The notes under the pieces: model-generated
Seen by the model: only the letters and a program-made list of their open reading frames with translations
The model's database searches: none
Told to the model about the DNA's origin: nothing
Assembly: GCA_028715885.1 (NCBI GenBank)
Contig: JAQUQX010000007.1
Span: forward strand, 1 to 62,579
Source of the DNA: Candidatus Methanoperedens sp.
GTDB taxonomy: Archaea; Halobacteriota; Methanosarcinia; Methanosarcinales; Methanoperedenaceae
Direction: 5' to 3'
Length of the DNA stretch: 62,579 bases
Translations under genes and position numbers: made by a program
Shown here: in pieces, positions 1,026-31,022 of the stretch
Numbering within the stretch: the first letter of the stretch is position 1
Layout: every line of letters starts with the position of its first letter

Positions 1026-1026
1026 T

Positions 1027-1989: not shown

Positions 1990-2029
1990 TGCATTTATTT
2001 GAAGAAGATTCCATTTTAGAGGAATTGAA

Positions 2030-2371: not shown

Positions 2372-2400
2372 TCAGCGAAAGAATTATTGGGGATGAAAAA

Positions 2401-4074: not shown

Positions 4075-5069
4075 TGAAAAACAGAAAAATACAGAGAGCA
4101 CTTATTACAGGGATAACAGGCTCAGGCGGAAGTTATCTGGCGGATTATATCGTAGATAACCACCCGGAAGTTGAATTGCACGGTATTTCGAGATGGCATA
4201 GCACAACTTCAAATAAAAATCTTAAAAATTCAATATACAAAGTTACTTTACACGAATGTGACCTGACAGATTTCAGTTCCATTTTTTCAGTTCTAAAAAC
4301 AATCGAGCCTGACGCGATTTTTCATCTAGCGTCGTATGCAAATGTCAGAGCATCGTTTATTACGCCACTTTCCGTTATCAATAATAATATTATGGGAACG
4401 GCAAACCTTTTTGAATCAATTAGGGTGTTAGAGATTGACCCAATTTTTCAGTTATGCAGCACGTCTGAAGTATATGGGCAGGTTGATCAGAAAAATGTAC
4501 CAATAAAAGAAGACTGTCCCCTAAACCCTTCAAGCCCCTATGCAATTTCAAAAGTAACTCAGGATCTGCTGGGATACACGTATTTTAGAAATTATAATAT
4601 GAAAATCATAAGGACAAGAATGTTCGCTTATCTTAACCCAAGAAGAGCTGACCTTTTCGCAACGGCATTTTCTTTACAGGTAGCAAGAATTGAAGCAGGG
4701 CTACAAAAAGAACTGCTGCACGGCAATCTTGACTCTATAAGAACGATCATCGATGTCAGAGATGCTATGGAGTCATACTGGGTTGCCACTACAAAATGCG
4801 ATTTTGGCGAAGTGTACAATATTGGCGGCACGACAGTTATAAAAGTTGGTGATTTTCTTGATATGCTTAAAAAATTAGCGAAATGCGAAATACCTTCAAA
4901 ACCAGATACAAAATTATTCAGACCATCAGATGTTACGCTACAAATACCCGATGTGTCAAAGTTTATGAATAAAACAGGATGGAAACCCAGATACAGTTTT
5001 GAAGAGAGCGTGCAACATTTACTGGATCATTGCAGAAGCGAAGTTGAAAAGGAGATAAAGAAATCATAG
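4074..5069 (+). CDS. GDP-mannose 4,6-dehydratase-like SDR (possible GDP-heptose 4,6-dehydratase)
   Basis: A 331-residue extended SDR of the GMD branch: ITGITGSGGSYLA (GxxGxxG with the extra glycine typical of GMD), HLASYANVRASF, STSEVYG, and YAISK as the YxxxK dyad. GMD enzymes make GDP-4-keto-6-deoxy-mannose; related DmhA/DdahA enzymes do the same on GDP-D-glycero-alpha-D-manno-heptose in Yersinia and Campylobacter. Because this locus carries the complete GDP-heptose route (hddA, hddC, gmhA, gmhB) and no phosphomannomutase or mannose-1-phosphate guanylyltransferase is visible here, the heptose substrate is favoured. That is inference; GDP-mannose from elsewhere in the genome is the alternative. 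Confidence 0.82.
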   Translation: MKNRKIQRALITGITGSGGSYLADYIVDNHPEVELHGISRWHSTTSNKNLKNSIYKVTLHECDLTDFSSIFSVLKTIEPDAIFHLASYANVRASFITPLSVINNNIMGTANLFESIRVLEIDPIFQLCSTSEVYGQVDQKNVPIKEDCPLNPSSPYAISKVTQDLLGYTYFRNYNMKIIRTRMFAYLNPRRADLFATAFSLQVARIEAGLQKELLHGNLDSIRTIIDVRDAMESYWVATTKCDFGEVYNIGGTTVIKVGDFLDMLKKLAKCEIPSKPDTKLFRPSDVTLQIPDVSKFMNKTGWKPRYSFEESVQHLLDHCRSEVEKEIKKS

Positions 5070-5082
5070 GTTAGATAAAAAT

Positions 5083-6060
5083 ATGTACCTCGATAATAAA
5101 CTTGTTTTTTTAGCGGGAGCGACGGGGCTTGCTGGAACAAGCATAATGAAATATATTCTTTATAATTACCCCTCAACTAAAATAAAAGCCTCTTTTTTTC
5201 ACACAAAACCATTTATAAAACACAAAAGAGTTGAGTATGTTTATGGTGACTTAAAATCGCAGAAAGATTGCAGAGAGATGGTAAAAGGGTGCGATTGTGC
5301 AATTATGGCTGCAGCAAGCACCGGCGGTTCAAACCAGAGCAACCTCCAGCCATTGGCCCAGGTAAACGAGAATATAGTCATGAACGCACAGATGCTTGAG
5401 TCATTTTATTTTGAACATATAAAGCGTGTGGTTTACATTGGCTCTGCAACCTTGTATCAGGAATTTCAGGGGCACATCAAAGAAGACGAACTTGATTTGA
5501 ATAAAGACCCTCATCTTGCTTATCTCGGAGTGGGCTGGGTTGTAAGATTTATTGAAAAACTTTGCAAATTCTGGCATGAAAAATATGAAATGGAAATTTT
5601 AATCTCAAGAACTTCAAATATCTATGGCCCATGTGCAAAATTTAATCCTGCTGTTTCCAATTTTATACCAGCAATCATCCGCAACGCGGTTGATAAAGTC
5701 GATCCTTTTGAGGTATGGGGTACTCCCGATGTTATAAGAGATGTTATTTATAGTGAAGATTTTGCAAGAGCAATTGTAACTATGCTTGATAATGAAAAAA
5801 TCAAATTTGATATCTTTAATATAGGTTCTGGAACAAGAACAACAGTTGATGAAGTCGTAAAATTGGCATTAAAATATGCTGAGCATAGACCATCGATAGT
5901 TAAATACAATTCCAGTAAACCAACCACTATTAAATTTAGAGGACTTGAAATATCAAAAGCGAAAAAAGTCCTTGACTGGCAGCCGAGGTACGCGATAGAC
6001 GAAGGGATAAAAAAAACCACCCAGTGGTGGATTAAAAATAAAGATGAGTGGAAAAAATGA
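5083..6060 (+). CDS. SDR related to GDP-fucose synthase, catalytic dyad not conserved
   Basis: A 325-residue extended SDR with FLAGATGLAGTS as NAD(P)-binding motif, a GSATLY segment, NIYGPCAKF, and the C-terminal DWQPRYAIDEGI signature of sugar epimerases. Overall it resembles GDP-fucose synthase (WcaG/GMER) and is paralogous to the gene at 8456. Where YxxxK should stand the sequence reads AYLGVGWVVRFIEK; aligning GW with the paralogue's YGWMR puts Val at both dyad positions. Either a different residue donates the proton or the protein is not a conventional oxidoreductase. The gene overlaps the next ATG (ATGA), so it is coupled to the methyltransferase gene. A role on a GDP-heptose is inferred from context. 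Confidence 0.78.
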   Translation: MYLDNKLVFLAGATGLAGTSIMKYILYNYPSTKIKASFFHTKPFIKHKRVEYVYGDLKSQKDCREMVKGCDCAIMAAASTGGSNQSNLQPLAQVNENIVMNAQMLESFYFEHIKRVVYIGSATLYQEFQGHIKEDELDLNKDPHLAYLGVGWVVRFIEKLCKFWHEKYEMEILISRTSNIYGPCAKFNPAVSNFIPAIIRNAVDKVDPFEVWGTPDVIRDVIYSEDFARAIVTMLDNEKIKFDIFNIGSGTRTTVDEVVKLALKYAEHRPSIVKYNSSKPTTIKFRGLEISKAKKVLDWQPRYAIDEGIKKTTQWWIKNKDEWKK

Positions 6061-6815
6061 AGACAAAAAACCATGATGCAATCGTTTTGTCAAGTTCAGA
6101 TGAAAAAAAAGTTTTTGGACAGTTCGCTGATTGTTTTAAGTCATCTCCACTACCAGATGACGAAATCTTACCTAATATCGGCTTGTTTTTGACATCAAAA
6201 AATTTATCAAGGATACTATTTTTTTATGAAATATATAAAAAAATACTTGATACCCATGGAATCATTGTTGAATTCGGGGTGAGATGGGGGCAGACGCTTT
6301 CGCTTATGTCTTCATTAAGAGGTATATTTGAACCTTTTAACAGGCATAGAAAAATTGTGGGATTTGATACATTTGAGGGTTTTAAGGGGATGGCACAGGA
6401 AGATGGAGAGCTCTGTAATTGCAAGGAGGGTTCCTTCTCAGTAACTTCAAATTATGAAGACTATCTGGATAAGATTTTGTTTTTACAGGAGCAATTAAAC
6501 CCGATTCCACATCTGAAAAAATATGAATTAGTAAAGGGAGATGCTCGAAAGACCGTTCCTGAATACTTGAAAAAACATCCTGAAACTATCATTTCCTTGG
6601 CGATTTTTGACTTTGATATATATTCACCTACGAAATCTGCATTGGAAGCAATTCAACCACATTTATATAAAGGAAGTGTACTCGTATTTGATGAGTTATG
6701 CGATGATGTTTTTCCGGGTGAAACGATTGCTTTGATGGAGACGATTGGTTTAAAAAATCTGAGAATTAAAAGATATCCAATGACATCAAGGATTTCGTAT
6801 CTGGAGATAGAATGA
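6057..6815 (+). CDS. TylF/macrocin O-methyltransferase-like protein
   Basis: About 252 residues, SAM-dependent methyltransferase fold of the TylF group: VEFGVRWGQTLSLM as motif I, GFDTFEGFKG (a strong TylF-type signature), a DFDIYSPT metal/catalytic segment and VLVFDELCDD. TylF enzymes O-methylate sugar hydroxyls, so it probably methylates a sugar of the surface glycan or a nucleotide-sugar precursor. A GTG nine bases upstream is in frame, but the ATG overlapping the previous stop (ATGA) is the likelier start. Its own stop overlaps the transketolase ATG in the same way. A second TylF-like gene lies at 10679. Confidence 0.82.
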   Translation: MKTKNHDAIVLSSSDEKKVFGQFADCFKSSPLPDDEILPNIGLFLTSKNLSRILFFYEIYKKILDTHGIIVEFGVRWGQTLSLMSSLRGIFEPFNRHRKIVGFDTFEGFKGMAQEDGELCNCKEGSFSVTSNYEDYLDKILFLQEQLNPIPHLKKYELVKGDARKTVPEYLKKHPETIISLAIFDFDIYSPTKSALEAIQPHLYKGSVLVFDELCDDVFPGETIALMETIGLKNLRIKRYPMTSRISYLEIE

Positions 6816-7594
6816 TACCAGTTTGCAAAGAGATCAGAGAAGATATACTTAAAATCTCTAAAAAAAGCGGGCATGGACATATACCCACCTGTTTTTCTGT
6901 TGTAGAAATTTTATATGCCATTTACAATACGATTAAACACGACCCTAGAAACCCATCATGGAATGAGAGGGATATATTTATTTTAAGCAAAGGACATGCA
7001 TCCCTTGCTCATTATTGTGTTCTCGCTCATTTCGGTTATTTTGATATCGAAAAGGTATATTCATTCGGGGCATTTTTGTCGGATTTTGGATGCCATGCTG
7101 ACAGGCTTAAAATTCCTGGAATAGAGGCATCTACAGGTTCGCTCGGACATGGAATTGGACTTGCAGTTGGCATGGCACTTGGGCTAAAAATTAAAAAAAA
7201 TAATAGAAGGGTGTTCACCCTGATAGGTGATGGCGAATCCAATGAAGGATCCGTATGGGAATCTGTAATGGTTGCAGTAAACCTGAAGCTAGATAATCTG
7301 ACGATTATTTATGATAATAATATGTCTCACTCAAGGGGTCTTCAGATACATAATCCGGCAGAACATTTTAAAGGATTTTGCTGCGATGTCGTTGAGATAA
7401 ACGGTCATGATGTTAATGTAATCGAAAAGGAATTAGTGAAAAAGAGTGATACTGTAAGGGTTATTGTAGCGAATACAAAAAAAGGATATGATTGTAAAAC
7501 GCTAATAGAAAGTCAATATGCCTGGCATAGGAAATCACCAAATGATCAGGAATTTGAAAAATTAATGGAGGAACTCTGTGAGGAAACAATTTAA
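6812..7594 (+). CDS. Transketolase, N-terminal (TPP-binding) subunit
   Basis: A 260-residue half of a split transketolase, the usual archaeal arrangement. Seen: ILSKGHASLAHY, the STGSLGHGIGLAVGMA stretch, and the TPP motif that starts at GDGESNEG and ends at YDNN. Transfers two-carbon units between sugar phosphates with thiamine diphosphate; the partner is the next gene. Placement inside a heptose locus suggests it provides sedoheptulose 7-phosphate, together with the transaldolase at 2401, in an organism that may lack a full pentose-phosphate pathway. The ATG overlaps the preceding stop and the 3' end overlaps the C-terminal subunit by 17 nt. Confidence 0.9.
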   Translation: MIPVCKEIREDILKISKKSGHGHIPTCFSVVEILYAIYNTIKHDPRNPSWNERDIFILSKGHASLAHYCVLAHFGYFDIEKVYSFGAFLSDFGCHADRLKIPGIEASTGSLGHGIGLAVGMALGLKIKKNNRRVFTLIGDGESNEGSVWESVMVAVNLKLDNLTIIYDNNMSHSRGLQIHNPAEHFKGFCCDVVEINGHDVNVIEKELVKKSDTVRVIVANTKKGYDCKTLIESQYAWHRKSPNDQEFEKLMEELCEETI

Positions 7595-8459
7595 GGAAAC
7601 CATCATGGATTTATCCACATATGATGATAAAATAGTCCTGATCTTTGGTGATGTGAGCGTCTATCTCTTTGATGAATTCAAAAGGAAATATTCTGATAGA
7701 TTCTATAATATGGGTATTTGTGAAAACACGCTGATAAGCGTCGGAGCTGGATTGAGTTCGCAGGGATTCCATCCCTTTATCCATACGATTACTCCTTTTA
7801 TTACTGAGAGAAGTTTTGAACAAATTAAACTCGACATGTGTTATAACCAATTTGGTGGAAACATATTATCATGCGGTGCCTCATTTGATTATGCTTGGGA
7901 TGGTGCAACTCACCATTGTTATACCGATTTAGCTATATTAAGACTATTGCCGAACATTGAGGTAATTCAACCAGGTTCAAGAAAGGAAGTTGATATTTTA
8001 TTGAGGAGTCAGTATAACAACGGAAAGCCAACTTATTTCAGGTTGTCTGATTATCCTCATGATATTGATTTACCGGTTGAATTCGGTAAAGGAGTTGTAA
8101 TAAAAGATGAACAGTCAAATTTTACGGTGATGACGGCAGGTCCGATGCTCGGTAACGTTATGGAAGCTTGCAAAGGGCTGGATGTTAATCTAGTTTATTT
8201 CCATACGATAAAGCCGATTGATAAAGAAACGATTTTAAAGTTTAAGGATACAAAAATTCTGGTTATTCATGATGCTTTTGGTTTATATGAAGCGATCTGT
8301 GAAGTTTCAAATTTATCTGTGTCATATTATGGATTGCCAGATGAATTCCTGAGTTTGTATGGAACTTTGGAAGACATCAGGAAGAAGATAAAACTTGATG
8401 CCAAATCAATTAGGGAATTCTTAAAAAGAGATTTTTTAAAACAAATATTATACGAGTGA
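7578..8459 (+). CDS. Transketolase, C-terminal (pyrimidine-binding) subunit
   Basis: A 293-residue second half of the split transketolase. Seen: IFGDVSVY, NMGICENTLISVGAGLS with the glutamate that activates TPP, the THHCYTDLAILRLLPNIEV stretch, and the transketolase C-terminal fold up to about residue 250. GTG start, chosen because GGAGG at 7567-7571 is 6 nt upstream and the frame overlaps the N-terminal subunit. The C-terminus diverges from the common ending with FGESG and EELL; that ending survives separately in the relic at 2030, which implies a second transketolase C-gene was once present. The stop overlaps the next GTG. Confidence 0.88.
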   Translation: MRKQFKETIMDLSTYDDKIVLIFGDVSVYLFDEFKRKYSDRFYNMGICENTLISVGAGLSSQGFHPFIHTITPFITERSFEQIKLDMCYNQFGGNILSCGASFDYAWDGATHHCYTDLAILRLLPNIEVIQPGSRKEVDILLRSQYNNGKPTYFRLSDYPHDIDLPVEFGKGVVIKDEQSNFTVMTAGPMLGNVMEACKGLDVNLVYFHTIKPIDKETILKFKDTKILVIHDAFGLYEAICEVSNLSVSYYGLPDEFLSLYGTLEDIRKKIKLDAKSIREFLKRDFLKQILYE

Positions 8460-9436
8460 TAAAATTGTTTTATAAAGATAAAGTTATACTTGTAACAGGT
8501 GGAACAGGGTTTGTTGGAATCCACCTTGTTCAGGAACTTATTAAAAATGGCGCAAAAGTTCGCATCACCGTTAATAAACGCCCACTTGTAATTGAAGACA
8601 AAAACATCGAAACTGTAAAAGCAGATTTGACAAAGCAGGATGATTGCATCAAAGCAGTAAAAGGGGCTGATTTCGTTTTCCATGCAGCAGGTTTGGTTTC
8701 AGGTGTGGGTGTAAAAAGTAATTTCATGATTTCTGGCATTACAGCCAATCTTGTGATGACTGCTCAAATGCTAAAATCTGCATGCGATGAAAACATAGAA
8801 AGATTTTTAATATTTAGCAGTAGCACAGGCTATCCACTCACAAATTATCCTGTTAAGGAGGAGGAGATGTGGGCTGGGCCAATGCCCCCATTTTATTCTG
8901 GATACGGATGGATGAGACGATACTTTGAAAAATTAAGCGAATTTATTGCTTCAAACTCTAATATGAAAATTGCCATTGTACGTCCAACTGCTGTATATGG
9001 TCGGTGGGATAATTTTGATATTATGACATCACATTTTATTCCTGCATTAGTCAGGAAAGCGGTTGAGAAACAAAATCCTTATGAGGTATGGGGTAGCGGT
9101 GAAGATTGTCGAGACTGTCTTCATATTACAGATTTGGCGCGTGGTTGTCTGCTTATGCTGGAAAAAAATGCAAATTGCGATCCGGTGAATATAGGGTATG
9201 GAAGAGCTTATAAAATTAAAGAAATTGTTCGTATAATTTTGAAGGCTGCTGGGCACGAAAATGCAAACGTTGTGTTTAATACGTCCAAGCCAACAGCCAT
9301 ACCTTTTAGAATGGTGGACGTATCGAAAGCGAAAAAAATACTGGGTTTTGAGCCACAAACAACTTTAGAGGAAGGCTTAAAAGATACAGTTGATTGGTAT
9401 GCCAGGACAAGAAATCTTTTTCCAAACATTCAATGA
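8456..9436 (+). CDS. SDR related to GDP-fucose synthase, YxxxR at the active site
   Basis: A 326-residue extended SDR with VTGGTGFVGIHL, FHAAGLVSGVG, FSSSTGYP, AVYGRWDNF and the C-terminal LGFEPQTTLEEGL. It is clearly paralogous to the protein at 5083. At the active site it reads GYGWMRRYFEK, so the tyrosine is present but the usual lysine is arginine. Likely an epimerase/reductase acting on a GDP-4-keto sugar; GDP-fucose synthase performs 3,5-epimerisation and 4-reduction and is the nearest known model. The GTG start overlaps the transketolase stop. A TTG nine bases further is the alternative start. Confidence 0.8.
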   Translation: MIKLFYKDKVILVTGGTGFVGIHLVQELIKNGAKVRITVNKRPLVIEDKNIETVKADLTKQDDCIKAVKGADFVFHAAGLVSGVGVKSNFMISGITANLVMTAQMLKSACDENIERFLIFSSSTGYPLTNYPVKEEEMWAGPMPPFYSGYGWMRRYFEKLSEFIASNSNMKIAIVRPTAVYGRWDNFDIMTSHFIPALVRKAVEKQNPYEVWGSGEDCRDCLHITDLARGCLLMLEKNANCDPVNIGYGRAYKIKEIVRIILKAAGHENANVVFNTSKPTAIPFRMVDVSKAKKILGFEPQTTLEEGLKDTVDWYARTRNLFPNIQ

Positions 9437-9445
9437 GGAAATAAT

Positions 9446-10624
9446 ATGAAAGTATTTATCAAGGGATTAAATGGCTGTGGTATGCGTAAAACCACTATCC
9501 AAAAATATTGCAACTTTCTAAATGCAAATGGGCATATATTGGTTGATAACCCTAAAAATAGCGATGTGATACTTCTTTGGACATGTGCCTTCCGTCGGGA
9601 TTTTCGGGACAATAGCATTTCTGAGATTAAAAGATACCAGAAAGAGTTTAAAAGTGAACTGATAGTTGCTGGTTGTTTGCCGGATATTGATAGGGGACTC
9701 CTTTCAGAATATTTCTCTGGACGGATTGTTAACTGGAGAGATGATGAAACGAAAATGGAAGAATATTTTGGCATCACTGACAAAAGAATGTCTGAAATAA
9801 CTTTTAACCTCGGTGAGAAGAGATTATGCCATGATGTTGCAAAATTCAAGAAAGAGAACCCAAATAAAGATGCCTCTTTTGTTGATCAATTTACCAAACT
9901 ATTTGTAGCTGAGGGCTGCAGGTTTAAATGCACATACTGTGCCGAAAGGCTGGCATTTCCGCCTTATAAAAGTTTTCCTGAGTCTGAACTGGTAAAAGAA
10001 TGCCGACGGCTTGTAAACGAGACAGGTCAACTGGAAGTGATGCTTTTGGGCGATAGTGTTGGCGATTACGGACATGACATAGACAGTAGTCTGCCGAATT
10101 TAATCCGTAAACTTAAAACTATAAATCCTGATTTGAAGATTGCTTTGCAGGGTTTAAATCCGGCACACTTTATCAAATTTTATGATGATATGGTTGAATT
10201 TCTGCGCGAAGGTGATATTCGTCATATGCAGTTACCTATTCAATCAGCTTCCGAACGTATATTAAAATTAATGCAAAGACCTTATACAAGAGCTGACATT
10301 GAAAAAATTTTCACTCTTTTGAATAATACTGATTTTACTGAGTTTGATACCCATCTTATCGTTGGTTTTCCGGGCGAGACTGATGAAGATTACGAAGAAA
10401 CAATTCAGTTTGTTCTTCATATTCATCCAAAGTACGTGCTCGTGAGCGGCTTTATGGAATCACCTGCAATGCCAGCATACAAGCTTCCCGATAAAGTTGA
10501 TAGTGAAACCAAATACAAACGACTGAGAGACGCGGAAGCTCGCATAAAAGCCGCCGGGATTATTTGTAATATTGACGATAGTGAACTGAGCGCTACTCGG
10601 TTTCACACGTTAAACTTGGTTTAG
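9446..10624 (+). CDS. Methylthiotransferase-like radical SAM protein lacking a TRAM domain
   Basis: A 392-residue protein of the MiaB/RimO/MtaB family. The N-terminal MTTase domain has its three cluster cysteines at C11, C47 and C77 (NGCGMRK, WTCAFRRD, AGCLPD). The radical SAM cluster is C158, C162, C165 (EGCRFKCTYC). The core continues through MQLPIQSASERILKLMQRPY and LIVGFPGETDED. The protein ends at about the point where the substrate-binding TRAM domain normally begins. Known members insert methylthio groups into tRNA or ribosomal protein. Here it sits among nucleotide-sugar and methyltransferase genes, so a non-RNA substrate, such as sulfur insertion into the glycan or its precursor, is a reasonable but unproven idea. 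Confidence 0.82.
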   Translation: MKVFIKGLNGCGMRKTTIQKYCNFLNANGHILVDNPKNSDVILLWTCAFRRDFRDNSISEIKRYQKEFKSELIVAGCLPDIDRGLLSEYFSGRIVNWRDDETKMEEYFGITDKRMSEITFNLGEKRLCHDVAKFKKENPNKDASFVDQFTKLFVAEGCRFKCTYCAERLAFPPYKSFPESELVKECRRLVNETGQLEVMLLGDSVGDYGHDIDSSLPNLIRKLKTINPDLKIALQGLNPAHFIKFYDDMVEFLREGDIRHMQLPIQSASERILKLMQRPYTRADIEKIFTLLNNTDFTEFDTHLIVGFPGETDEDYEETIQFVLHIHPKYVLVSGFMESPAMPAYKLPDKVDSETKYKRLRDAEARIKAAGIICNIDDSELSATRFHTLNLV

Positions 10625-11481: not shown

Positions 11482-13452
11482 ATGCAAAAAAAAGTTAATG
11501 ATGTTAGCAGGGTAAAAATAGGGTTGGTTCAGATCAACAATAGTTTTTCACATCAAAACTATTTGCCTTATTCTATAGGTATTCTTCAAGCATATGCCCA
11601 AAAATACCTTGAGAATAAGAGTATGTTTGAGTTTTTACTGCCGATTTATAAAAGGATTCCTGTTAAAATTGCTGAACGAGAGCTTTCAGATACTGATATT
11701 ATTTTTTTCAGCACCTATATCTGGAACGTTAAAATATCATTGGAAATTGCAAAACGAATTAAACAAAAAAGTCCGGAAACTATCATTGTTTTTGGGGGTC
11801 CTCAGGTTCCAAATAAGGGTAATGAAGAATTTTTACGAAAATATCCATTCATCGATATAGCCTGCCATGGTGAAGGCGAAAAGACTTTTTTATTTATTCT
11901 AGAAAATTATACAACAGGCAATTGGGGAAAAGTGCCTTCTATCAGTTATATTGACAATAAAGGAAAATTTGTTCAAACACCGATAGGAATGAGGATATCT
12001 AACTTAGATGAAATTCCTTCACCTTATATTGAAGGTGCTTTTGAACCCTTAATGGATGCAAATCCAAAAGAAAAATGGATTGCTTTGTGGGAAACTAACA
12101 GGGGTTGTCCATTCTCATGCAGTTATTGTGTATGGGGCTCACCAGATCAAAAAAAAGTGTATGCGCACAATATTGAAAAAATTTATCAGGAAATTGACTG
12201 GTTCAGCCAGCATAAAATAGAATTTATATTTTGCTGCGATGCGAATTTCGGCATTATGCAAAGAGACATTGGTATCGTAAAACACTTTGCAGAGAATAAA
12301 AAGAAATATGGATATCCAGTGGCTTTATCTGTACAAAACACCAAGAACTCTACAATGCGTTTGTACAACATATATCAATTGATGTCAGACGCGGGGTTAA
12401 GCAAAGGTGTTTCACTGGCTCTTCAATCGGTTAATAGGGATACATTAAAAAGTATTAAACGCGAAAATATCTCCGTCGATACGTTCCAAGAGTTGCAAAA
12501 AAAATTTAGTGAAGAAAATATTGAAACTTTTACTGATATAATTATGGGATTACCATGTGAAACGTATGACTCTTTTGTTAATGGTATCTCGACAATAATT
12601 GAAAACGGTCAGCATAATAGAATTCAGTTCATCAACCTATCAATACTTACCAATTCCGAAATGGATGAACTGGAATATCAAAAAAAATACGGATTTGACA
12701 TTGTAGATACAAAGCTTATAAATATACATGGAAGTTTGTCTGATGCTGATGAAATAGCCGAAACGCAGCGGCTGGTGATCGGAACAAACTCAATGCCGAG
12801 ACGAGATTGGGCTAGGACAAGGGTATTTGGCTGGATGACGGCTCTGTTGCATTTCGACAAACTTTTACAAATTCCTTTCATTATTTTGCATAAAGAGTAC
12901 TCTATACGTTACTGCGAGTTAATTGAAAATTTTATTACTGATGATAAAACATCATCAATATTATCTGAAATGCGCTCTTTTTTTACCGATAAAGCCAGAG
13001 ATATTCAAATCGGCGGTGCTGAGTATTGTGAATCAAAAAAATGGCTGAACATCTGGTGGCCGGCAGACGAATTGATGCTAATTAAGTTATGCACTGAAAA
13101 TAAACTACCTGAATTTTATAAAGAAGCTGAACAATCAATCGCCAAATTTTTAGAGAAAAAAAAAGTAAGAGATTACCGATCTATTCTCCATGACGCCATC
13201 GTTTTAAATCAAAATTTAATCAAAATGCCTTTTCAAGATAAAAATATAGATATAGAAATGTCTTATAATATTTGGGATGTTTATCGCGCAAGTTTAAGCG
13301 GTCGAATCGCTCAAATTGTAAAAGGTGAATACCATTATGAGATAGACCGTACAAGCGTAAAATGGTCTTCATGGGAGGACTGGTGCAGAGAAGTTGTTTG
13401 GTATGGAAATAAAAAGGGAGCGTATCTTTATACATGCAAAAATTTACAATAA
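11482..13452 (+). CDS. B12-binding-domain radical SAM protein
   Basis: A 656-residue protein with an N-terminal cobalamin-binding-like Rossmann domain (residues about 10-140, including VFGGPQVPNKG and CHGEGEKTF), then a radical SAM domain with cluster cysteines C209, C213 and C216 (NRGCPFSCSYC), then about 250 residues without recognisable motif. Relatives methylate unactivated carbons or phosphorus, or rearrange carbon skeletons; the substrate here is unknown. Position between a TylF-like methyltransferase and an SDR within the heptose module suggests C-methylation or another radical modification of a sugar or lipid. The B12 domain lacks an obvious DxHxxG motif, so cobalamin would bind base-off without a histidine ligand, as in many class B relatives. 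Confidence 0.8.
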   Translation: MQKKVNDVSRVKIGLVQINNSFSHQNYLPYSIGILQAYAQKYLENKSMFEFLLPIYKRIPVKIAERELSDTDIIFFSTYIWNVKISLEIAKRIKQKSPETIIVFGGPQVPNKGNEEFLRKYPFIDIACHGEGEKTFLFILENYTTGNWGKVPSISYIDNKGKFVQTPIGMRISNLDEIPSPYIEGAFEPLMDANPKEKWIALWETNRGCPFSCSYCVWGSPDQKKVYAHNIEKIYQEIDWFSQHKIEFIFCCDANFGIMQRDIGIVKHFAENKKKYGYPVALSVQNTKNSTMRLYNIYQLMSDAGLSKGVSLALQSVNRDTLKSIKRENISVDTFQELQKKFSEENIETFTDIIMGLPCETYDSFVNGISTIIENGQHNRIQFINLSILTNSEMDELEYQKKYGFDIVDTKLINIHGSLSDADEIAETQRLVIGTNSMPRRDWARTRVFGWMTALLHFDKLLQIPFIILHKEYSIRYCELIENFITDDKTSSILSEMRSFFTDKARDIQIGGAEYCESKKWLNIWWPADELMLIKLCTENKLPEFYKEAEQSIAKFLEKKKVRDYRSILHDAIVLNQNLIKMPFQDKNIDIEMSYNIWDVYRASLSGRIAQIVKGEYHYEIDRTSVKWSSWEDWCREVVWYGNKKGAYLYTCKNLQ

Positions 13453-13510: not shown

Positions 13511-14371
13511 ATGAAACTAAAAAATAAAGTGGCTATTATTACAGGTGGGGCTGGAGGGATTGGTAAAACAATCGTTAAATACTATCTTAAAGAGGGTGCA
13601 AGTGTTATTATCGCAGAAATCAATAACCTGGAATTAGAAGCCATGCTCAATGAGTTAAATGGTGAAGGAATTAATAGGATGCTGGGAGTAACTGCGGATA
13701 TAACAGATATACAACAGGTTAAAGATTTAGTTAAACAAACTGTATCAACTTTCGGAACCGTGGATATCTTGGTGAATGTTGCAGGTATTCAAAAACCTAT
13801 TGGTAGATTAATAGAAGTAAATGCGGATGAATGGATAAAAAATATTAATACCAATCTAATTGGAACTATGCTATGTTGCAAATACGTCTTACCTATTATG
13901 ATCTCAAAAAAGAAAGGTAAAATTATAAACTTTTCAGGAGGAGGAGCAACCTTTCCAAGACCGCATTTTTCCGCCTATGCATCTGCAAAAGCCGCGATTG
14001 TTAGATTTACAGAAACAATAGCAGAAGAGGTAAATGAATTTGGGATCGAAATAAATGCGATATCACCAGGCTCTGTGTATACAAAAATGTTAGAAGAAAT
14101 TATTAGTGCAGGTGCTAAATCTGGGGAAAAAGATTTAACTACCGCAATTAAAATAAAGAACAACGGCGGGACACCCCCGGAATTTCCAGCAGAACTGGCA
14201 GTGTTTCTGGCATCATCTGCGTCGGATGGCATTACAGGGAAGTTAATTAGTGCAGTATGGGATGACTGGAAGAACTTTGGTAAAAATATTTCAGAAATAA
14301 AATATTCGTCATTATTTACATTAAGACGCGTGGATGGAGTAAAAATCACTGAAATGAGAAATGAAGCATGA
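13511..14371 (+). CDS. Classical short-chain dehydrogenase/reductase
   Basis: A 286-residue classical SDR: TGGAGGIGK cofactor motif near the N-terminus, NVAGIQ (NNAG-type motif), an FSGGGA segment at the catalytic-serine position with glycine and alanine around it, and YASAK as YxxxK, followed by SPGSVYT. The family reduces or oxidises hydroxyl/keto groups with NAD(P)(H). The strand-5 region reads FSGGG rather than the common SSxxG, so the catalytic Ser is shifted or supplied by S at the start of the segment. It precedes hddA by 16 nt and probably belongs to the heptose operon. The substrate is unknown; a keto-sugar is plausible. Confidence 0.82.
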   Translation: MKLKNKVAIITGGAGGIGKTIVKYYLKEGASVIIAEINNLELEAMLNELNGEGINRMLGVTADITDIQQVKDLVKQTVSTFGTVDILVNVAGIQKPIGRLIEVNADEWIKNINTNLIGTMLCCKYVLPIMISKKKGKIINFSGGGATFPRPHFSAYASAKAAIVRFTETIAEEVNEFGIEINAISPGSVYTKMLEEIISAGAKSGEKDLTTAIKIKNNGGTPPEFPAELAVFLASSASDGITGKLISAVWDDWKNFGKNISEIKYSSLFTLRRVDGVKITEMRNEA

Positions 14372-14387: not shown

Positions 14388-15386
14388 ATGATTATAAGTA
14401 GAACACCATTTCGAATATCTTTTTTCGGCGGCGGAACAGACTATCCTGTGTGGTATAAAGAACACGGTGGGGCTGTACTCGCTACTTCGATAAATAAGTA
14501 TTGTTATATCACCTGTCGATATCTTCCACCATTCTTCGATTACAAATACCGGATAGTATATTCTAAGAATGAAATAGCCAAAGATATTTTTGAAATACAA
14601 CATCCCTCCGTTCGGGAAACTCTCCACTTTATGAATCTGGATGGCGGAGTTGAAATACATCACGACGCTGATTTACCTGCAAGGACGGGTCTCGGTTCAA
14701 GTTCGGCATTCACCGTATGTCTGCTTAATGCACTGTATGCCTTGAAAGGCAAAATGGTAACTAAAAGACAGTTGGCATTAGATGCTATACACATAGAGCA
14801 GGATAGAATCAAAGAAAATGTTGGGTCGCAGGACCAAACAATAACGGCTTTTGGAGGGTTCAATAAAATAGAATTTGGCGGGGATCAAGAAATATTGATT
14901 CAACCAATTACCTTAAATTCCAGAAAATGCCTCAGTCTTCAGGATCATCTGATGTTATTTTTTACAGGGTTTTCACGGACTGCTTCCGAGATTGCTGGTG
15001 AGCAGATAAAGAAAACACGAGATAAGAAAAACGAGCTGAATAGAATGCTGGAAATGGTGGAGGAAGCCATAAATATTCTTAATGGTGGTGATTCTGATTT
15101 AACTGACTTTGGTAGACTTTTGCACGAAAGCTGGATGATCAAACGGAGTTTGACGGACAGGATTTCAACTCCACAAATAGATGAAATCTACGAAGTTGCG
15201 TTAAAAGCTGGGGCACTGGGTGGAAAGTTATTGGGGGCTGGAGGAGGAGGTTTTATTCTGTTTTTTGTAGAGCCTGAATTCCAGCCAAAAGTGAAAGAAG
15301 TATTGAAAAATTTATTACACGTACCATTAAAATTCGAGAATCTGGGCAGCCAAATAATTTATTATTCACCACAAAATGATTTTTAA
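14388..15386 (+). CDS. hddA: D-glycero-alpha-D-manno-heptose 7-phosphate kinase
   Basis: A 332-residue GHMP kinase. Seen: RTPFRISFFGGGTDYP near the N-terminus (HddA-type signature), the phosphate-binding loop PARTGLGSSSAF at residues 98-108, and the C-terminal GALGGKLLGAGGGGF. HddA phosphorylates C1 of D-glycero-alpha-D-manno-heptose 7-phosphate to the 1,7-bisphosphate in the GDP-heptose branch. The assignment rests on the signature and on the immediately following hddC, then gmhA and gmhB within 4 kb, the complete four-enzyme set. An L-fucokinase-type or other GHMP kinase is the alternative but fits the context less well. Confidence 0.88.
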   Translation: MIISRTPFRISFFGGGTDYPVWYKEHGGAVLATSINKYCYITCRYLPPFFDYKYRIVYSKNEIAKDIFEIQHPSVRETLHFMNLDGGVEIHHDADLPARTGLGSSSAFTVCLLNALYALKGKMVTKRQLALDAIHIEQDRIKENVGSQDQTITAFGGFNKIEFGGDQEILIQPITLNSRKCLSLQDHLMLFFTGFSRTASEIAGEQIKKTRDKKNELNRMLEMVEEAINILNGGDSDLTDFGRLLHESWMIKRSLTDRISTPQIDEIYEVALKAGALGGKLLGAGGGGFILFFVEPEFQPKVKEVLKNLLHVPLKFENLGSQIIYYSPQNDF

Positions 15387-15398
15387 TAATTTGAGAAG

Positions 15399-16112
15399 AT
15401 GGCTACTAATTTTAGAGAAACTGATGTCGTAATCCTCTGCGGAGGGCTGGGTACGAGATTGAAAGAGGTCGTTTTTGATCGACCTAAGGTATTAGCAAAA
15501 ATAGGAGAGATAACATTTCTCGATATTCTAATAAAAGATCTTACAGTTCGTGGATTTAAAAATATAATCCTTTGTGTTGGTTATCTGAAAGATCAGATTA
15601 AAAACCATTTTAATTACGACAAAGATTATAACATCACATTTTCTGAAGAAGAGGATCCTCTCGGTACAGGTGGAGCTCTAAAAAAAGCCAAACCATTAAT
15701 AAAAAGCAATCCGTTTATGGTCATGAACGGGGATTCCATATGTAAGATAAATTACAGGGACTTCTACGAGTTTCATATGAATAAAAAAGCAGCTCTGTCT
15801 ATGGTTCTGGCTCGATCAGAGTTAGCTCAAGATTTTGGCAGTGTCGTATTAAATGATTCACAAAGGATAAAGAGCTTTAAAGAAAAAGTTGTCACTAGAG
15901 ATGAATGCTTAATAAATGCAGGAATATACTTAATGGAAAGAGATATTTTTTCATATATGCCAAATAAAAATCATTTCTCTTTAGAGTACGATCTCTTTCC
16001 AAAATTAATTGAAGATAGATGTTACGGATTTATAACCGAGAGCGAATTGGTTGACATAGGAACCCCCCAACGATATGAAAAAGCGATCCATTTAATAGGA
16101 GGAACAAAATGA
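15399..16112 (+). CDS. hddC: D-glycero-alpha-D-manno-heptose 1-phosphate guanylyltransferase
   Basis: A 237-residue nucleotidyltransferase: ILCGGLGTRLKEVVFDRPK (residues 12-30) with the nucleotide-binding glycines and lysine, EEDPLGTGGALKKA, and NGDS as the metal-binding aspartate. Length fits HddC, which lacks the C-terminal left-handed helix seen in the GlmU-like enzymes of this window. It would form GDP-D-glycero-alpha-D-manno-heptose from the 1-phosphate left by GmhB. The guanylyl specificity is inferred from neighbours hddA, gmhA and gmhB. Its stop overlaps the ATG of the next gene by 4 nt. Confidence 0.86.
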   Translation: MATNFRETDVVILCGGLGTRLKEVVFDRPKVLAKIGEITFLDILIKDLTVRGFKNIILCVGYLKDQIKNHFNYDKDYNITFSEEEDPLGTGGALKKAKPLIKSNPFMVMNGDSICKINYRDFYEFHMNKKAALSMVLARSELAQDFGSVVLNDSQRIKSFKEKVVTRDECLINAGIYLMERDIFSYMPNKNHFSLEYDLFPKLIEDRCYGFITESELVDIGTPQRYEKAIHLIGGTK

Positions 16113-17239
16113 GGATAAACTTTGGCGAACTGATAATAGGAGATACAGCAAAAAAATATTTTCAGAAAGTATTTGATAAAAACTGGGCTTCGGAAGGAGA
16201 TAATGTGAGAGAGTTTGAAGAAAAATTCGCAGCAAAGTTTGGATGCAAACATGCTATTGCTACGAGTTCAGGCACAGACGCAGATATTGTTTCCTGCGCA
16301 GCATTGTACGACTATGGTGCAAATAGAGGGGATGAAGTAATTGTACCTGCATTATCATTTGTGGCTACTGCCAACTCGATTTTGGCAGCAGGATTAATCC
16401 CTAAATTTGTTGATATTGAACTTGAAACTCTCAACATAGACCCATCTAAAATTGAGAAAGCGATCACTGACAGGACAAGAGCCATTATGGTTGTTCATAC
16501 CATGGGAAAACCGTGCGAAATGGATTCAATTATAAAAATTGCAGAGGCTCATGATTTGAAAATTATAGAAGATGCCTGTGAAGCGCATGGCGCTACCTAT
16601 AAAGGCAAAATTGCAGGTACTATTGGCGATATGGGGGCATTCAGTTTCTATACTGCTCATCAGATAGTCTGCGGGGAAGGCGGTATGGTTGTCACTAATG
16701 ATGATAAAATTGCGGATGTAGTCCGGTCCGTAAAATCACATGGTCGTCCCCCAGGCAGTATATATTTCGATTTCCAGAGAATTGGTTTTAATTCGAAAAT
16801 GAATGATTTAGAGGCTGCTCTTGGGCTGGAAGGCATCGAGTACTTCGATGAATTTTTTAATAAACGCAAAAACAATTTATATAAATTACTGGAACTGACC
16901 GAGGACTTATCGGATTATTGTTATTTTAGTAAAGAAGAAAATTATGAAAAAGTAAGTCCTCATGCCTTCCCGCTGGTGTTGAAAGATAAAAAATATAATC
17001 GTGATAGTCTTTATAAATATTTAGAATCCTGTGGAATCCAGTGCAAAACGTTGTTCGGAAGTTTACCAACCCAACACAATGCATTCAGATTCCTGAATTA
17101 TAAATATGGTGATTTCCCGATATCAGAATATGTTGGGAAAAATGGGCTGCACTTTGGTATGCATCAATACTTAAATGACGATGATTTGCATTTTATCAGC
17201 GACACCTTACATGAATATTTTAGGAAAATTAAAAAATAA
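16109..17239 (+). CDS. DegT-fold PLP/PMP enzyme with His at the lysine position: predicted sugar 3-dehydratase (ColD/E1 type)
   Basis: A 376-residue DegT/DnrJ/EryC1/StrS-family protein: SSGTDADI (PLP phosphate site), IEDACEAHGA, and GAFSFYTAHQIVCGEGG. In the aminotransferases of this family the last motif holds the PLP lysine. Here residue 184 is histidine, as in ColD (GDP-4-keto-6-deoxymannose 3-dehydratase) and E1, where His abstracts a proton and the sugar loses its 3-OH. The [2Fe-2S] cysteine set of E1 is absent, which favours the ColD type, regenerated with glutamate. With the GMD-like dehydratase at 4074 and GDP-heptose genes on both sides, the predicted product is a 3,6-dideoxy-4-keto-heptose. 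Family and His184 are seen; the substrate is inference. Confidence 0.84.
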   Translation: MRINFGELIIGDTAKKYFQKVFDKNWASEGDNVREFEEKFAAKFGCKHAIATSSGTDADIVSCAALYDYGANRGDEVIVPALSFVATANSILAAGLIPKFVDIELETLNIDPSKIEKAITDRTRAIMVVHTMGKPCEMDSIIKIAEAHDLKIIEDACEAHGATYKGKIAGTIGDMGAFSFYTAHQIVCGEGGMVVTNDDKIADVVRSVKSHGRPPGSIYFDFQRIGFNSKMNDLEAALGLEGIEYFDEFFNKRKNNLYKLLELTEDLSDYCYFSKEENYEKVSPHAFPLVLKDKKYNRDSLYKYLESCGIQCKTLFGSLPTQHNAFRFLNYKYGDFPISEYVGKNGLHFGMHQYLNDDDLHFISDTLHEYFRKIKK

Positions 17240-17241
17240 AT

Positions 17242-17835
17242 ATGAATCATAAAGAGAATCTTATATCGGATTATATTGAAAGAAGTATTCAAACAAAAAA
17301 AGAACTGCGAAAAACCAATATAGAAGTAATTGCTCAAATTGTAGAATTAATAATTGATGCTTACAGGCAAGGAAAAAAGGTAGTATGGTTTGGCAATGGC
17401 GGAAGCGCAGCAGACGCCCAGCATCTTGCATGCGAGCTGGTGAGCAAGTTTTTCCTTGAAAGAAAAGCGCTTGCATCGTTCGCTCTAACGACAAATACGT
17501 CAGAATTGACTGCTATTGCAAATGACTATGATTTTAGCAGGGTTTTTGCACGGCAGGTCGAAGCGCTGGTAAATCCTGGGGATATTGTCATCGGCATCAG
17601 CACGAGCGGCAGCTCGCCAAATGTAATTGAAGGCATCAAAGAAGCAAAACATCTTGGAGCAATAACAATTGCTTTCACAGGAGCATCTGGTGGTAAATTG
17701 AAAGGAATTGCAGATTTTCTGTTGGATGTGCCGTCTGAAATTACGCCGCACATTCAGGAGTCTCATATTATGATTGGACATATTATCTGTTATTTAGTTG
17801 AGAAAGAGCTATTTGGAGATAAAAATGAAAAATAA
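17242..17835 (+). CDS. gmhA: Sedoheptulose 7-phosphate isomerase
   Basis: A 197-residue SIS-domain isomerase that converts sedoheptulose 7-phosphate to D-glycero-D-manno-heptose 7-phosphate. Seen: FGNGGSAADAQHLACEL at residues 50-66, STSGSSPNV, and HIQESHIMIGH. The zinc ligands known for GmhA, His61, Glu65, Gln172 and His180, are all present at the same numbers as in the E. coli enzyme. Length fits the family. It is the entry point of the heptose pathway in this locus, fed by transaldolase and transketolase upstream. Its 3' end overlaps gmhB by 11 nt. Confidence 0.92.
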   Translation: MNHKENLISDYIERSIQTKKELRKTNIEVIAQIVELIIDAYRQGKKVVWFGNGGSAADAQHLACELVSKFFLERKALASFALTTNTSELTAIANDYDFSRVFARQVEALVNPGDIVIGISTSGSSPNVIEGIKEAKHLGAITIAFTGASGGKLKGIADFLLDVPSEITPHIQESHIMIGHIICYLVEKELFGDKNEK

Positions 17836-18382
17836 AGCCGTATTCATTGATAGAGATGGAACTATCAATGTAGATGTGCATTATTTAGATGATCCAAATA
17901 AATTTGAAATGTATCCAGGTGTTGGTGAAGGTCTTAAAAAATTAAAGGAAAATAGGTTTAAAATAATCGTTATAACAAATCAATCAGGCATTGCAAGAGG
18001 ATATTTTACAGAACAGCAGTTATTCGATATTCATGAAAGAATGAAAAAGGAATTCCAGAGATTTAATGTAGCATTGGATGGAATCTATTATTGCCCGCAC
18101 CATCCAGACGATAACTGCAATTGCCGGAAGCCAAACACTGCATTATTTAAAAAGGCAATAAATGAACATAATATCGATGTTAAAAAATCCTATACGGTAG
18201 GTGATAAAATTTTGGATATAGGTGCAGGAAAAAAAATCGGTACTGGAACAATTCTTATACCTGAGCCGCATATAAAAGAAGAAATTTTATCTAAACAAAT
18301 CGAATGGGAGTACAATCCCGATTATGTTGCGGATGATTTTATAGATGCTATTGAGTGGATTTTGAAGTTAGAAAGAGGCTAA
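17825..18382 (+). CDS. gmhB: D-glycero-D-manno-heptose 1,7-bisphosphate 7-phosphatase
   Basis: A 185-residue HAD phosphatase from the ATG at 17825, which places the nucleophile motif IDRDGTIN near residues 8-15; an in-frame start 27 nt upstream would only add residues encoded inside gmhA. Seen: TNQSGIARGYF (motif II) and a zinc-binding loop CPHHPDDNCNCRKP, the hallmark of GmhB. VGDKILDIGAG forms motif III/IV, slightly off the usual GDxxxD. It removes the 7-phosphate from heptose 1,7-bisphosphate made by HddA. The 3' end is 8 nt before the ABC transporter gene. Confidence 0.9.
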   Translation: MKNKAVFIDRDGTINVDVHYLDDPNKFEMYPGVGEGLKKLKENRFKIIVITNQSGIARGYFTEQQLFDIHERMKKEFQRFNVALDGIYYCPHHPDDNCNCRKPNTALFKKAINEHNIDVKKSYTVGDKILDIGAGKKIGTGTILIPEPHIKEEILSKQIEWEYNPDYVADDFIDAIEWILKLERG

Positions 18383-18389
18383 AAAAAAT

Positions 18390-19205
18390 ATGCATATGAT
18401 TATCAAGCCTAAGAAAGGCTTGCAATTGGTGGATTTCAAAGAGCTAAGAGAGTATAAGGACCTGTTCTATTTTTTGGTTACTCGTGATATAAAAGTGCGC
18501 TATTCTCAAACAGTTTTAGGAGGACTATGGGCAATTATCCAGCCGTTTTTTTCAATGATTGTTTTCACTCTTTTTTTTGGGGTGCTAGCCAAAGTACCTT
18601 CCGATGGCATTCCTTACCCTATCTTTAATTTTTCTGCAATGATAGCCTGGACATATTTTGCTGGTGCAATAACAGGGGCTGGCAATAGTCTTGTTGGGAA
18701 TGCACATTTGGTATCAAAGATATACTTTCCCCGTTTGATAATCCCCCTAACGCCTGTTGTTGCAGGTTTATTAGACTTTTCAATTGCCTTTGTGGTTTTA
18801 GTTGGCATGATGCTTTATTTTCACATATATCCTACTATTACGGTGCTCTTTTTACCAGTCTTAATTATTCTAATGATGCTCGCAGCGAGTGGAATAGGAA
18901 TGTTCCTTGCAGCTTTAAATGCAAAATACAGGGATATTAAATACACAATCCCATTCTTAGTGCAGTTAGGGATGTTCGCTTCGCCCATTGTTTATCCAGC
19001 TTCAATGGTACCTGAAAAATATCATTTAATTTATGCATTAAACCCTATGGTCGGAGTTATTGAAGGATTTAGATCTATTTTATTGGGAACTGTTGCCTTT
19101 CCTACAGAGATGTTTCTGGTTTCAGCTTTAATAAGTTTAAGTCTATTTATAATTGGATTGTTATATTTCAAGCAAATGGAACGTTATTTTGCTGATATTA
19201 TTTAA
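18390..19205 (+). CDS. wzm: ABC-2 polysaccharide export permease (Wzm type)
   Basis: A 271-residue membrane protein with about six hydrophobic segments. The N-terminal cytosolic stretch DLFYFLVTRDIKVRY is followed by QTVLGGLWAIIQPF, a signature of the Wzm/TagG family, and the C-terminal part has YALNPMVGVIEGFRS. With the ATPase encoded directly downstream it forms an ABC exporter for a lipid-linked polysaccharide. The first codons offer ATG at 18390 or 18396. Its position at the end of the heptose module suggests that the heptose-containing glycan is its cargo. Confidence 0.9.
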   Translation: MHMIIKPKKGLQLVDFKELREYKDLFYFLVTRDIKVRYSQTVLGGLWAIIQPFFSMIVFTLFFGVLAKVPSDGIPYPIFNFSAMIAWTYFAGAITGAGNSLVGNAHLVSKIYFPRLIIPLTPVVAGLLDFSIAFVVLVGMMLYFHIYPTITVLFLPVLIILMMLAASGIGMFLAALNAKYRDIKYTIPFLVQLGMFASPIVYPASMVPEKYHLIYALNPMVGVIEGFRSILLGTVAFPTEMFLVSALISLSLFIIGLLYFKQMERYFADII

Positions 19206-19212
19206 GGTGAGC

Positions 19213-20520
19213 ATGTCCAAAGCAATGATTAAAATTAACAACCTATCAAAACGCTACCGCATTGGAGCAAAAGAACAGAGCTATAGAACAATTCGTGAAA
19301 CCATAATGGATGGGCTTAGAGCTCCTGTAAGGAATTTAGCCAAATTACGAAAGCTGACAGAATTCAAAGCTTCAGATGATGAGGAAGATGTAATATGGGC
19401 GCTTAAGGATGTTTCGTTTGAAGTAAACGAAGGAGAGGTGCTGGGCATTATCGGGAGAAACGGTGCCGGAAAAAGTACTTTTTTGAAAATACTATCGCGT
19501 ATAACAGAGCCTACCAGTGGTAGCATAGAAGTTCACGGCAGGGTATCAAGCCTGTTAGAGGTTGGAACTGGATTTAATTTTGAGCTTACAGGCAGGGAGA
19601 ATGTTTTCCTCCAAAGCGCAATTTTGGGTATGCAGAAGTGGGAAATTAAAGAGAAGTTTGATGATATTGTTAGATTTGCTGATATCGAACGCTTCATAGA
19701 TACGCCCGTAAAGCGATATTCCAGCGGTATGTATGTCAGGCTGGCATTCTCAGTGGCAGCGCATCTTGAACCCGAGATACTGGTGGTGGATGAGGTGCTG
19801 GCAGTTGGTGATATATCTTTTCAGAAAAAGTGCCTTGGTAAGATGAGCGAAGTTGCCAGGAGAGGGCGCACAGTACTGTTTGTGAGTCATAATATGGATG
19901 CAGTTCAAAAGCTATGCACACGTGCGATAATATTGGATGAGGGTAGGGTGGTGATGGATGGTCCTACGGATGAAGTTGTGAGTAGATACCTCGGAGAAGA
20001 GATGAACTATGCCGGGCAGCGAATATGGTCAGATATAAACAAGGCACCAGGTTCCGGTATGGTGCGATTGTGCGCGGTGCGCGTCCTAGATCAGAACGGA
20101 AAAGCCTGCACAAGTTTTGATGTACGCGATCCGGTGTCAATCGAGACGGAATTCCAAGTCATGGAAGAGGGGCATCGTTTGGTCGTACAACTTCACTTTG
20201 TAAGTGAAATGGGGAACGTTCTTTTTATCTCAAACAACAATCTGGATTCTCCTTGGCGAGATACAGCATGTCCGCAAGGACATTATCGGGCTGTATGCCA
20301 CATACCGGGTGATTTTTTGAATGAAGGAAAGGTTTCTGTTACATGCAGGATTGATACTGTAGGGTTATATCATTATATGCACGTAATGGAACGCGATTTG
20401 GTCAGATTTAAAGTCTCTGACAGGATGGATCCAGCAGGTGTACGGGGTAACTACTCGTTGCAATGGCCATCTGGTGGTATACGCCCGAGGTTACCTTGGA
20501 CAGTGGAAAAGGCATGTTGA
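19213..20520 (+). CDS. wzt: ABC polysaccharide export ATPase with C-terminal glycan-binding domain (Wzt type)
   Basis: About 435 residues. N-terminal ABC domain: Walker A GRNGAGKST at residues 81-89, ABC signature YSSGMYVRLAFS, Walker B ILVVDEVLAVGD. From about residue 260 a C-terminal beta-rich domain follows (SVTCRI, HYMHVMERDLVRF), matching the Wzt C-domain that recognises the chain end in O-antigens such as O8/O9a. This implies export of a chain-terminated polymer; the TylF-like methyltransferases could provide the cap. ATG at 19213 is chosen over longer upstream extensions inside wzm; an AAGGTG lies close before it. The GC content of the 3' half is higher than in the next genes. Confidence 0.9.
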   Translation: MSKAMIKINNLSKRYRIGAKEQSYRTIRETIMDGLRAPVRNLAKLRKLTEFKASDDEEDVIWALKDVSFEVNEGEVLGIIGRNGAGKSTFLKILSRITEPTSGSIEVHGRVSSLLEVGTGFNFELTGRENVFLQSAILGMQKWEIKEKFDDIVRFADIERFIDTPVKRYSSGMYVRLAFSVAAHLEPEILVVDEVLAVGDISFQKKCLGKMSEVARRGRTVLFVSHNMDAVQKLCTRAIILDEGRVVMDGPTDEVVSRYLGEEMNYAGQRIWSDINKAPGSGMVRLCAVRVLDQNGKACTSFDVRDPVSIETEFQVMEEGHRLVVQLHFVSEMGNVLFISNNNLDSPWRDTACPQGHYRAVCHIPGDFLNEGKVSVTCRIDTVGLYHYMHVMERDLVRFKVSDRMDPAGVRGNYSLQWPSGGIRPRLPWTVEKAC

Positions 20521-31004: not shown

Positions 31005-31022
31005 CACCATTTGGAAAGGACT

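Follow-up and report, generated by a model that had tools for sequence, protein, structure and literature searches.

The window analysed here is a whole 62,579-nucleotide contig (C7) of a 2.09-Mb Candidatus Methanoperedens assembly (78 contigs, 95% complete). At positions 14388–18382 of its forward strand lie five mostly abutting or overlapping genes, which encode an HddA-like GHMP kinase, an HddC-like nucleotidyltransferase, a DegT-family pyridoxal 5′-phosphate (PLP) enzyme, GmhA and GmhB, and are followed by the export genes of Wzm and Wzt. The locus, with genes otherwise known from bacterial capsules, is a hint that modified heptoses can occur in the cell coats of archaea: this archaeon probably makes guanosine diphosphate (GDP)-heptose, converts it to GDP-3,6-dideoxy-4-keto-heptose, and finishes and exports the sugar into a surface glycan. 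The earlier, sequence-only reading of the window had described a complete GDP-heptose pathway of hddA, hddC, gmhA and gmhB within 4 kb; all four genes were recovered on the forward strand, but the fifth gene inside the cluster had been passed over. Because a predicted C3-dehydratase and a GDP-heptose 4,6-dehydratase-like gene, both missed by that reading, are present, a dideoxy-heptose is a more likely product than the plain GDP-heptose it had assumed, while its choice of GDP fits the enzyme set.

The assignments of GmhA and GmhB are well supported by sequence comparison. The putative sedoheptulose 7-phosphate isomerase GmhA (17242–17835) scored 193 bits with PRK13936 (cut-off 276) and 184 bits with TIGR00441 (cut-off 209), below the cut-off in both cases, and 180 bits with PDB entry 2xbl. 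Alignment to 2xbl matched its H61, E65, Q172 and H180 to the zinc ligands given in excerpts of the literature for GmhA of Burkholderia pseudomallei (H64, E68, Q175 and H183; PMC5705639) and Neisseria gonorrhoeae (H61, E65, Q175 and H183; PMC5387315), so the four-ligand site noticed earlier is indeed kept. GmhB (17825–18382), the putative heptose 1,7-bisphosphate 7-phosphatase, passed both PRK08942 (180 bits, cut-off 178) and TIGR00213 (157 bits, cut-off 150), with C89, H91, C97 and C99 (counting from the second residue) forming the Cys-His-Cys-Cys zinc loop.

The nearest family of the HddA-like kinase (14388–15386) by both NCBIfam and PDB comparison was that of heptose kinases, its top four PDB sequences scoring 117–143 bits and the next family 66 bits. 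Among these four, 3k85 (143 bits) and 4n3o (117 bits) are named heptose kinases, while 4usm (121 bits) and 4usk are named only "putative sugar kinase" and are presumably WcbL. HddC was likewise the nearest family of the nucleotidyltransferase (15399–16112) by NCBIfam and PDB, with 5xhw and 6jq8 (114 and 113 bits), both 6-deoxy-mannoheptose pathway proteins, as its best PDB relatives; its matches were to HddC and further enzymes of the NTP_transferase fold and not to RfaE domain II. Since the kinase is of the GHMP (HddA) type, these comparisons support a better fit of the enzyme set to GDP-heptose than to adenosine diphosphate (ADP)-heptose. A second module of a short-chain dehydrogenase/reductase (SDR), a GHMP kinase, a nucleotidyltransferase and a SIS protein was seen in four other loci (L088, L089, L090 and L004), and the L088 kinase reached 182 bits with the NCBIfam HddA model, above the window HddA.

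The DegT-family product (16109–17239; PF01041, 343 bits) is predicted to be a sugar C3-dehydratase. A histidine at the position of the PLP-binding lysine marks the sugar C3-dehydratases, and in this protein the lysine of the DegT aminotransferases was found to be replaced by His184, which aligned with the histidine of the E1 3-dehydrase 3bcx and with the lysine of perosamine synthase 3bn1. The protein scored 262 bits with the RfbH model (cut-off 423). Among 61 related loci fetched by HddA similarity, a DegT homologue was within reach in 42, and all 42 carried the histidine version, six of them with a second, lysine version in addition, so that a C3-dehydratase appears as a steady partner of the HddA-type kinase.

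The remaining steps would be carried out by genes upstream and downstream of the module, which, like the other genes described here between 2030 and 20520, lie on the forward strand. A GMD-family protein (4074–5069) had as its best PDB match 7us5 (193 bits), which we take to be the GDP-heptose 4,6-dehydratase of Campylobacter jejuni, ahead of 2pk3 (170 bits) and Escherichia coli GMD 1db3 (135 bits), and may form the 6-deoxy-4-keto heptose. The PLP enzyme with the active-site histidine would then remove the C3 hydroxyl to give GDP-3,6-dideoxy-4-keto-heptose, and epimerase- or reductase-like enzymes would complete the sugar. A candidate for the latter is EPI1, an NAD-dependent epimerase/dehydratase (3142–4074; PF01370) that occurred in 37 of the 61 HddA loci; nearby are two GDP-fucose-synthase-like SDR proteins of unassigned role, FCL1 (5083–6060) and FCL2 (8456–9436), with 113 and 160 bits to NF047922 (cut-off 500). 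The finished sugar would enter a surface glycan exported by Wzm, an ABC-2 permease (18390–19205; PF01061, 64 bits), and Wzt, an ATP-binding cassette (ABC) export ATPase with a Wzt_C domain (19213–20520; PF00005 and PF14524, the scanned frame starting at 19153). A Woesebacteria locus (L013, 1–11000) showed nearly the same gene order as window 4074–9436, plus HddA and HddC.

The bacterial GDP-heptose pathway of C. jejuni (GmhA, HddA, GmhB and HddC) uses the same four enzyme families, and the window shares with it the intact GmhA metal site and the GHMP-type kinase; it differs in its archaeal host and in a kinase and nucleotidyltransferase far below the equivalog cut-offs. C. jejuni keeps gmhB in its LPS (lipopolysaccharide) cluster according to the excerpted source (PMC10680097), whereas the window holds the four genes and the C3-dehydratase in one block. 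In C. jejuni HS:5 and HS:11, GDP-3,6-dideoxy-heptose is described as arising by 4,6-dehydration followed by the logic of PLP-dependent C3-dehydration (PMC10440746, in excerpt). In common with it, the window has a PLP enzyme in which histidine replaces lysine and a predicted 4,6-dehydratase whose nearest solved relative is that of C. jejuni, but the PLP enzyme as a whole scores somewhat higher with aminotransferases, the reductases could not be assigned and no RmlC-type C5-epimerase appeared among the 20 genes scanned with Pfam; the locus is therefore likened to the C. jejuni dideoxy-heptose route and not filed as it. We count the core as a new member, from an archaeon, of a known pathway, and the dideoxy and branching parts as predictions.

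The module was also found in an independent assembly of the same genus. An HddA of 81% identity lies in genome G381 (G381:C29:8947–9942), with the same coordinates as locus L007 on contig JAPZAO010000029.1 of a separately sequenced Candidatus Methanoperedens sp. metagenome-assembled genome (MAG), and there HddA, HddC, the PLP enzyme, GmhA and GmhB (81, 73, 91, 86 and 80% identity, respectively) follow the order of the window. The same contig carries Nop5 (69%) and its next gene (82%), as in the window, and the left flank of the window (3–2235) shared 86.5% nucleotide identity with G352, a further Methanoperedens genome. Nop5 (PF01798, 157 bits) was detected in the window, as were the archaeal forms of GlmU (382 bits against a cut-off of 292) and GlmM (523 against 439). 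Thus the Nop5 and GlmU cited by the sequence-only reading as archaeal markers held, but its third marker, "MCR component A2" (52587–54344, reverse strand), reached 322 bits against a cut-off of 517 and can be called only an AtwA-like ABC ATPase. Its placement of the locus in an archaeon stands, with archaeal genes on both flanks and the independent Methanoperedens assembly, and the break in linkage between glycan and archaeal housekeeping genes that it had considered was not seen, as G381 keeps the module and Nop5 on one contig.

In the phylum, HddA (E ≤ 1e-20) and GmhA (E ≤ 1e-25) were each detected in 5 of 294 genomes, the window's own counted, with G000 and G219 having both (p = 0.002). In the genus, close HddA (the window's own and the one at 81%) and GmhA above 150 bits occurred in the same two of 31 genomes, and three more genomes encoded a GHMP kinase of 41–42% identity with a SIS protein nearby. 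GmhA above 100 bits was present in 46 of the 50 genomes with close HddA (these account for 50 of the 61 loci); no GmhA was found in the genomes of L013, L028 and L066, and that of L058 gave only a 23-bit match. Since Gram-negative bacteria are expected to hold GmhA for LPS anyway, the weight of this co-occurrence is carried by Patescibacteria and archaea. Homologue searches and trees, which had been proposed with the sequence-only reading, found HddA and GmhA in other archaea and grouped the archaeal rows amid bacteria. In a quick HddA tree of 68 rows, the window grouped with two Methanoperedenaceae, one Thermoplasmata, G219 and one "bacterium" (support 80 in the Shimodaira–Hasegawa-like approximate likelihood-ratio test, SH-aLRT) within a bacterial radiation, a close HddA of Thermoplasmatales falling just outside, and in the GmhA tree (40 rows) six archaeal rows formed a starred clade (97) among bacteria. 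These topologies fit a module that came from bacteria and then spread or was inherited among archaea. Nop5 had no match in G219 or in the genome of L008, so the nature of both is unsure.

The supply of sedoheptulose 7-phosphate was then considered from the genes at hand. The sole PF00456 transketolase match and the sole TIGR00875 transaldolase match of the genome both lie within the glycan locus: a split transketolase of a divergent glycan type, with an N-terminal chain (6812–7594; PF00456, 106 bits) and a C-terminal chain, TktC (7578–8459), and a transaldolase/FSA-family TalC (2401–3048; 333 bits, cut-off 246). The window TktC keeps the catalytic Glu and His, and has Gly and Asp at the positions equivalent to E. 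coli H461 and R520, which we take to be the substrate-phosphate ligands; this loss weakens the pair as a candidate source of sedoheptulose 7-phosphate. The serine position was unstable between alignments (Val in two, Tyr in one) and was not used. Gly likewise replaces the phosphate-site His in all 20 other TktC chains of the HddA loci and in two further Methanoperedens loci (L136 and L137), while a canonical TktC with both His and Arg was found in L133, L138, L139, L140, L141 and L142. TktN-TktC is followed by transaldolase in L139–L142, comes after an Rpe-like protein (identified by eye only) in L133 and L140, and is preceded in G219 (L142) by an HldA kinase passing TIGR02198 (349 bits, cut-off 345). 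PF00456 matches occurred in 7 of the 31 genus genomes, and the idea of a canonical transketolase widespread in the genus, as PF02779 matches might imply, was dropped, for the six alignable matches were only 24–26% identical, without the transketolase residues and 2-oxoacid dehydrogenase-like. L136 (2631–11447) and L137 (6405–16665) hold together transaldolase, GmhB, a GSU2086-family protein, a domain-swapped HldE-like fusion, a GmhA-like protein and a split transketolase.

Near the left end of the window, 3–2235 and 2232–3019 matched G352 at 86.5–86.6% nucleotide identity, and between them the window lacks a 1,834-base segment; in G352 this segment encodes TktN, most of TktC and part of a broken HldA. 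The open reading frame across the junction (2030–2371) joins an HldA N-terminus (72% over 72 amino acids) to a TktC C-terminus (82% over 38 amino acids). Either the lineage deleted HldA and a canonical transketolase, or the assembly skipped the segment; a real deletion would hint at a change from beta/ADP- to alpha/GDP-heptose chemistry and would mean that the transaldolase and the divergent transketolase are left to supply the precursor. No PfkB/HldA kinase other than this 72-residue remnant was found in the window, the rest of the genome not having been searched for HldA, HldC or HldD.

Several results weigh against the proposed dideoxy-heptose pathway. HddA and HddC fell far below their equivalog cut-offs (148 bits against 600 for NF049969, and 152 against 300 for NF049965), and their substrates are therefore inferred. 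GmhB fitted beta-anomer models better than alpha (180 vs. 134 bits), both models that it passed being beta, and the whole DegT protein scored higher with the aminotransferase 7b0d (228 bits) than with ColD (194 bits). The C5-epimerase of routes to L-products has an RmlC-like fold, and none of this type was detected among the 20 genes of 3–20520 scanned with Pfam (9446–10624 by NCBIfam only); as FCL1 and FCL2 also showed no YxxxK catalytic motif on inspection, the finished sugar cannot be given a name. In the Woesebacteria locus L013 the operon is almost identical and HddA is present, yet no GmhA was found in the 1.1-Mb genome. The weak point is supply: the pathway that the sequence-only reading called complete is so only from sedoheptulose 7-phosphate onward, the PF00456 search of the genome found no canonical transketolase and only the divergent pair at 6812–8459, and G381 (an 81% complete genome) holds the five-gene module with no PF00456 match.

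These results could be read in other ways. The kinase and nucleotidyltransferase clade might activate another sugar phosphate, hexose or branched, with GmhA and GmhB serving a different route; the cut-offs that both proteins miss would suit this, as would the neighbourhoods of this HddA type, in which GmhA (6 of 61 loci) and GmhB (8 of 61) are rare compared with HddC (44 of 61) and DegT (42 of 61), and the genomes of L013, L028, L066 and L058 with no GmhA or a trace of it. However, those exceptions are draft genomes, Gram-negative bacteria can share the GmhA and GmhB of LPS, as C. jejuni does for GmhB in the excerpt of PMC10680097, and GmhA co-occurs in archaea and in Patescibacteria expected to be without LPS (Yanofskybacteria L029 and L049, Liptonbacteria L060, Nealsonbacteria L063), which leaves this explanation unlikely, if worth keeping in mind. 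A decaying or starved pathway, deprived of any source of sedoheptulose 7-phosphate once HldA and the canonical transketolase were lost, would account for the missing 1,834 bases and for a genome whose only PF00456 match lacks the phosphate-site His and Arg, but the transaldolase and all five genes of the module keep intact reading frames, and the module genes are 73–91% identical to those of G381; moreover, a second transketolase may be missing from a 95% complete MAG, and the deletion could be an artefact of assembling mixed strains. We consider such decay improbable.

Beta-anomer, ADP-heptose chemistry in place of alpha/GDP would agree with the model preference of GmhB, with the HldA that G219 keeps beside TktN-TktC-transaldolase and with the remnant at 2030–2371, but only 72 residues of HldA are left in the window, its intact kinase belongs to the GHMP type and the nucleotidyltransferase does not resemble RfaE domain II, so that this chemistry is very improbable. 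Finally, a chimeric contig joining bacterial glycan genes to archaeal housekeeping genes might be suspected from the GC content, which varies from 0.29 to 0.50 along the contig, and from the bacterial relatives of many glycan genes. With the five-gene module and the Nop5 neighbourhood conserved in an independent assembly and the left flank shared with G352, it was rejected on synteny as hardly credible.

The loss of phosphate-site residues in TktC, in a locus with a C3-dehydratase, would be explained if the divergent split transketolase branched a keto sugar, as by analogy it may. In excerpts of a 2025 review (PMC12247030), split-gene transketolases are proposed to move a hydroxyacetyl unit onto keto sugars in miharamycin and amipurimycin, and YerE to add two carbons to cytidine diphosphate (CDP)-3,6-dideoxy-4-keto-glucose on the way to yersiniose. 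The window resembles these systems in having a split thiamine enzyme with lost substrate-phosphate residues in a sugar locus with a C3-dehydratase; it differs from the miharamycin and amipurimycin cases described there in concerning a surface glycan and not an antibiotic, and 27 of the 42 C3-dehydratase loci have no split transketolase pair. An association between the two enzymes across the HddA loci, counted by eye and affected by contig ends, was set aside as too weak (the histidine enzyme in 15 of 19 loci with both chains vs. 27 of the 42 others). It is conceivable, as a doubtful extension of the dideoxy-heptose pathway, that the archaeon makes a branched GDP-3,6-dideoxy-heptose, the transketolase of 6812–8459 adding a two-carbon unit to the 4-keto group after both dehydrations, and that the lineage gave up an older HldA/ADP-heptose route, supplied by a transketolase-transaldolase operon of its own, in favour of the GDP route, the scar at 2030–2371 recording the switch.

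Other genes of the region were also annotated. A B12-binding radical S-adenosylmethionine (SAM) protein (11482–13452; KedN5-like, NF033712 278 bits, cut-off 700) is possibly a C-methyltransferase of the sugar; KedN5-like proteins also stand beside HddA in L013, L014, L015, L028, L032 and L064, from unrelated phyla. An SDR oxidoreductase (13511–14371; PF00106, 183 bits) lies immediately upstream of hddA. The frame of a uridine diphosphate (UDP)-sugar epimerase (994–1989) has no ATG, GTG or TTG before 1120 though it encodes a Rossmann N-terminus there, and the same Met-less N-terminus was read in L141 (G352); the frame may use an unusual start codon or be coupled to the gene before it. At 31011–34152, asparagine-synthase-like and glycosyltransferase genes resemble, below cut-offs, families of the XrtA/PEP-CTERM system, here in an archaeon.

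The sequence-only reading had called archaeal examples of GDP-D-glycero-alpha-D-manno-heptose little described. In the open-licence PMC literature, no report of GDP-heptose in archaea was found, none by title, among the matches listed, of hddA or hddC in an archaeon, and nothing on point for heptose or surface-glycan work on Methanoperedens; in the excerpts of PMC12820599 and PMC9425974, heptose comes up in no more than a reference and a table. ADP-heptose clusters, however, are reported in the accessible parts of papers on Iplasma (PMC3750248) and Methanococcus maripaludis KA1 and JJ (PMC12667266). These share with the window heptose activation genes in an archaeal surface-glycan locus, but they are described as ADP-heptose clusters, whereas in the window the kinase and nucleotidyltransferase belong to the GDP type and only a scar remains of HldA.

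If the proposed pathway is true, modified GDP-heptoses are built by an archaeon that oxidises methane anaerobically, so that finding heptose in a mixed consortium would not reliably indicate bacterial envelopes. The locus would also offer a test case for the source of sedoheptulose 7-phosphate in archaea without a standard pentose phosphate pathway, several related loci holding transketolase and transaldolase beside glycan genes, and the split transketolase that lacks the phosphate residues, which also accompanies C3-dehydratases in many bacterial loci, points to a possible class of branched surface sugars.

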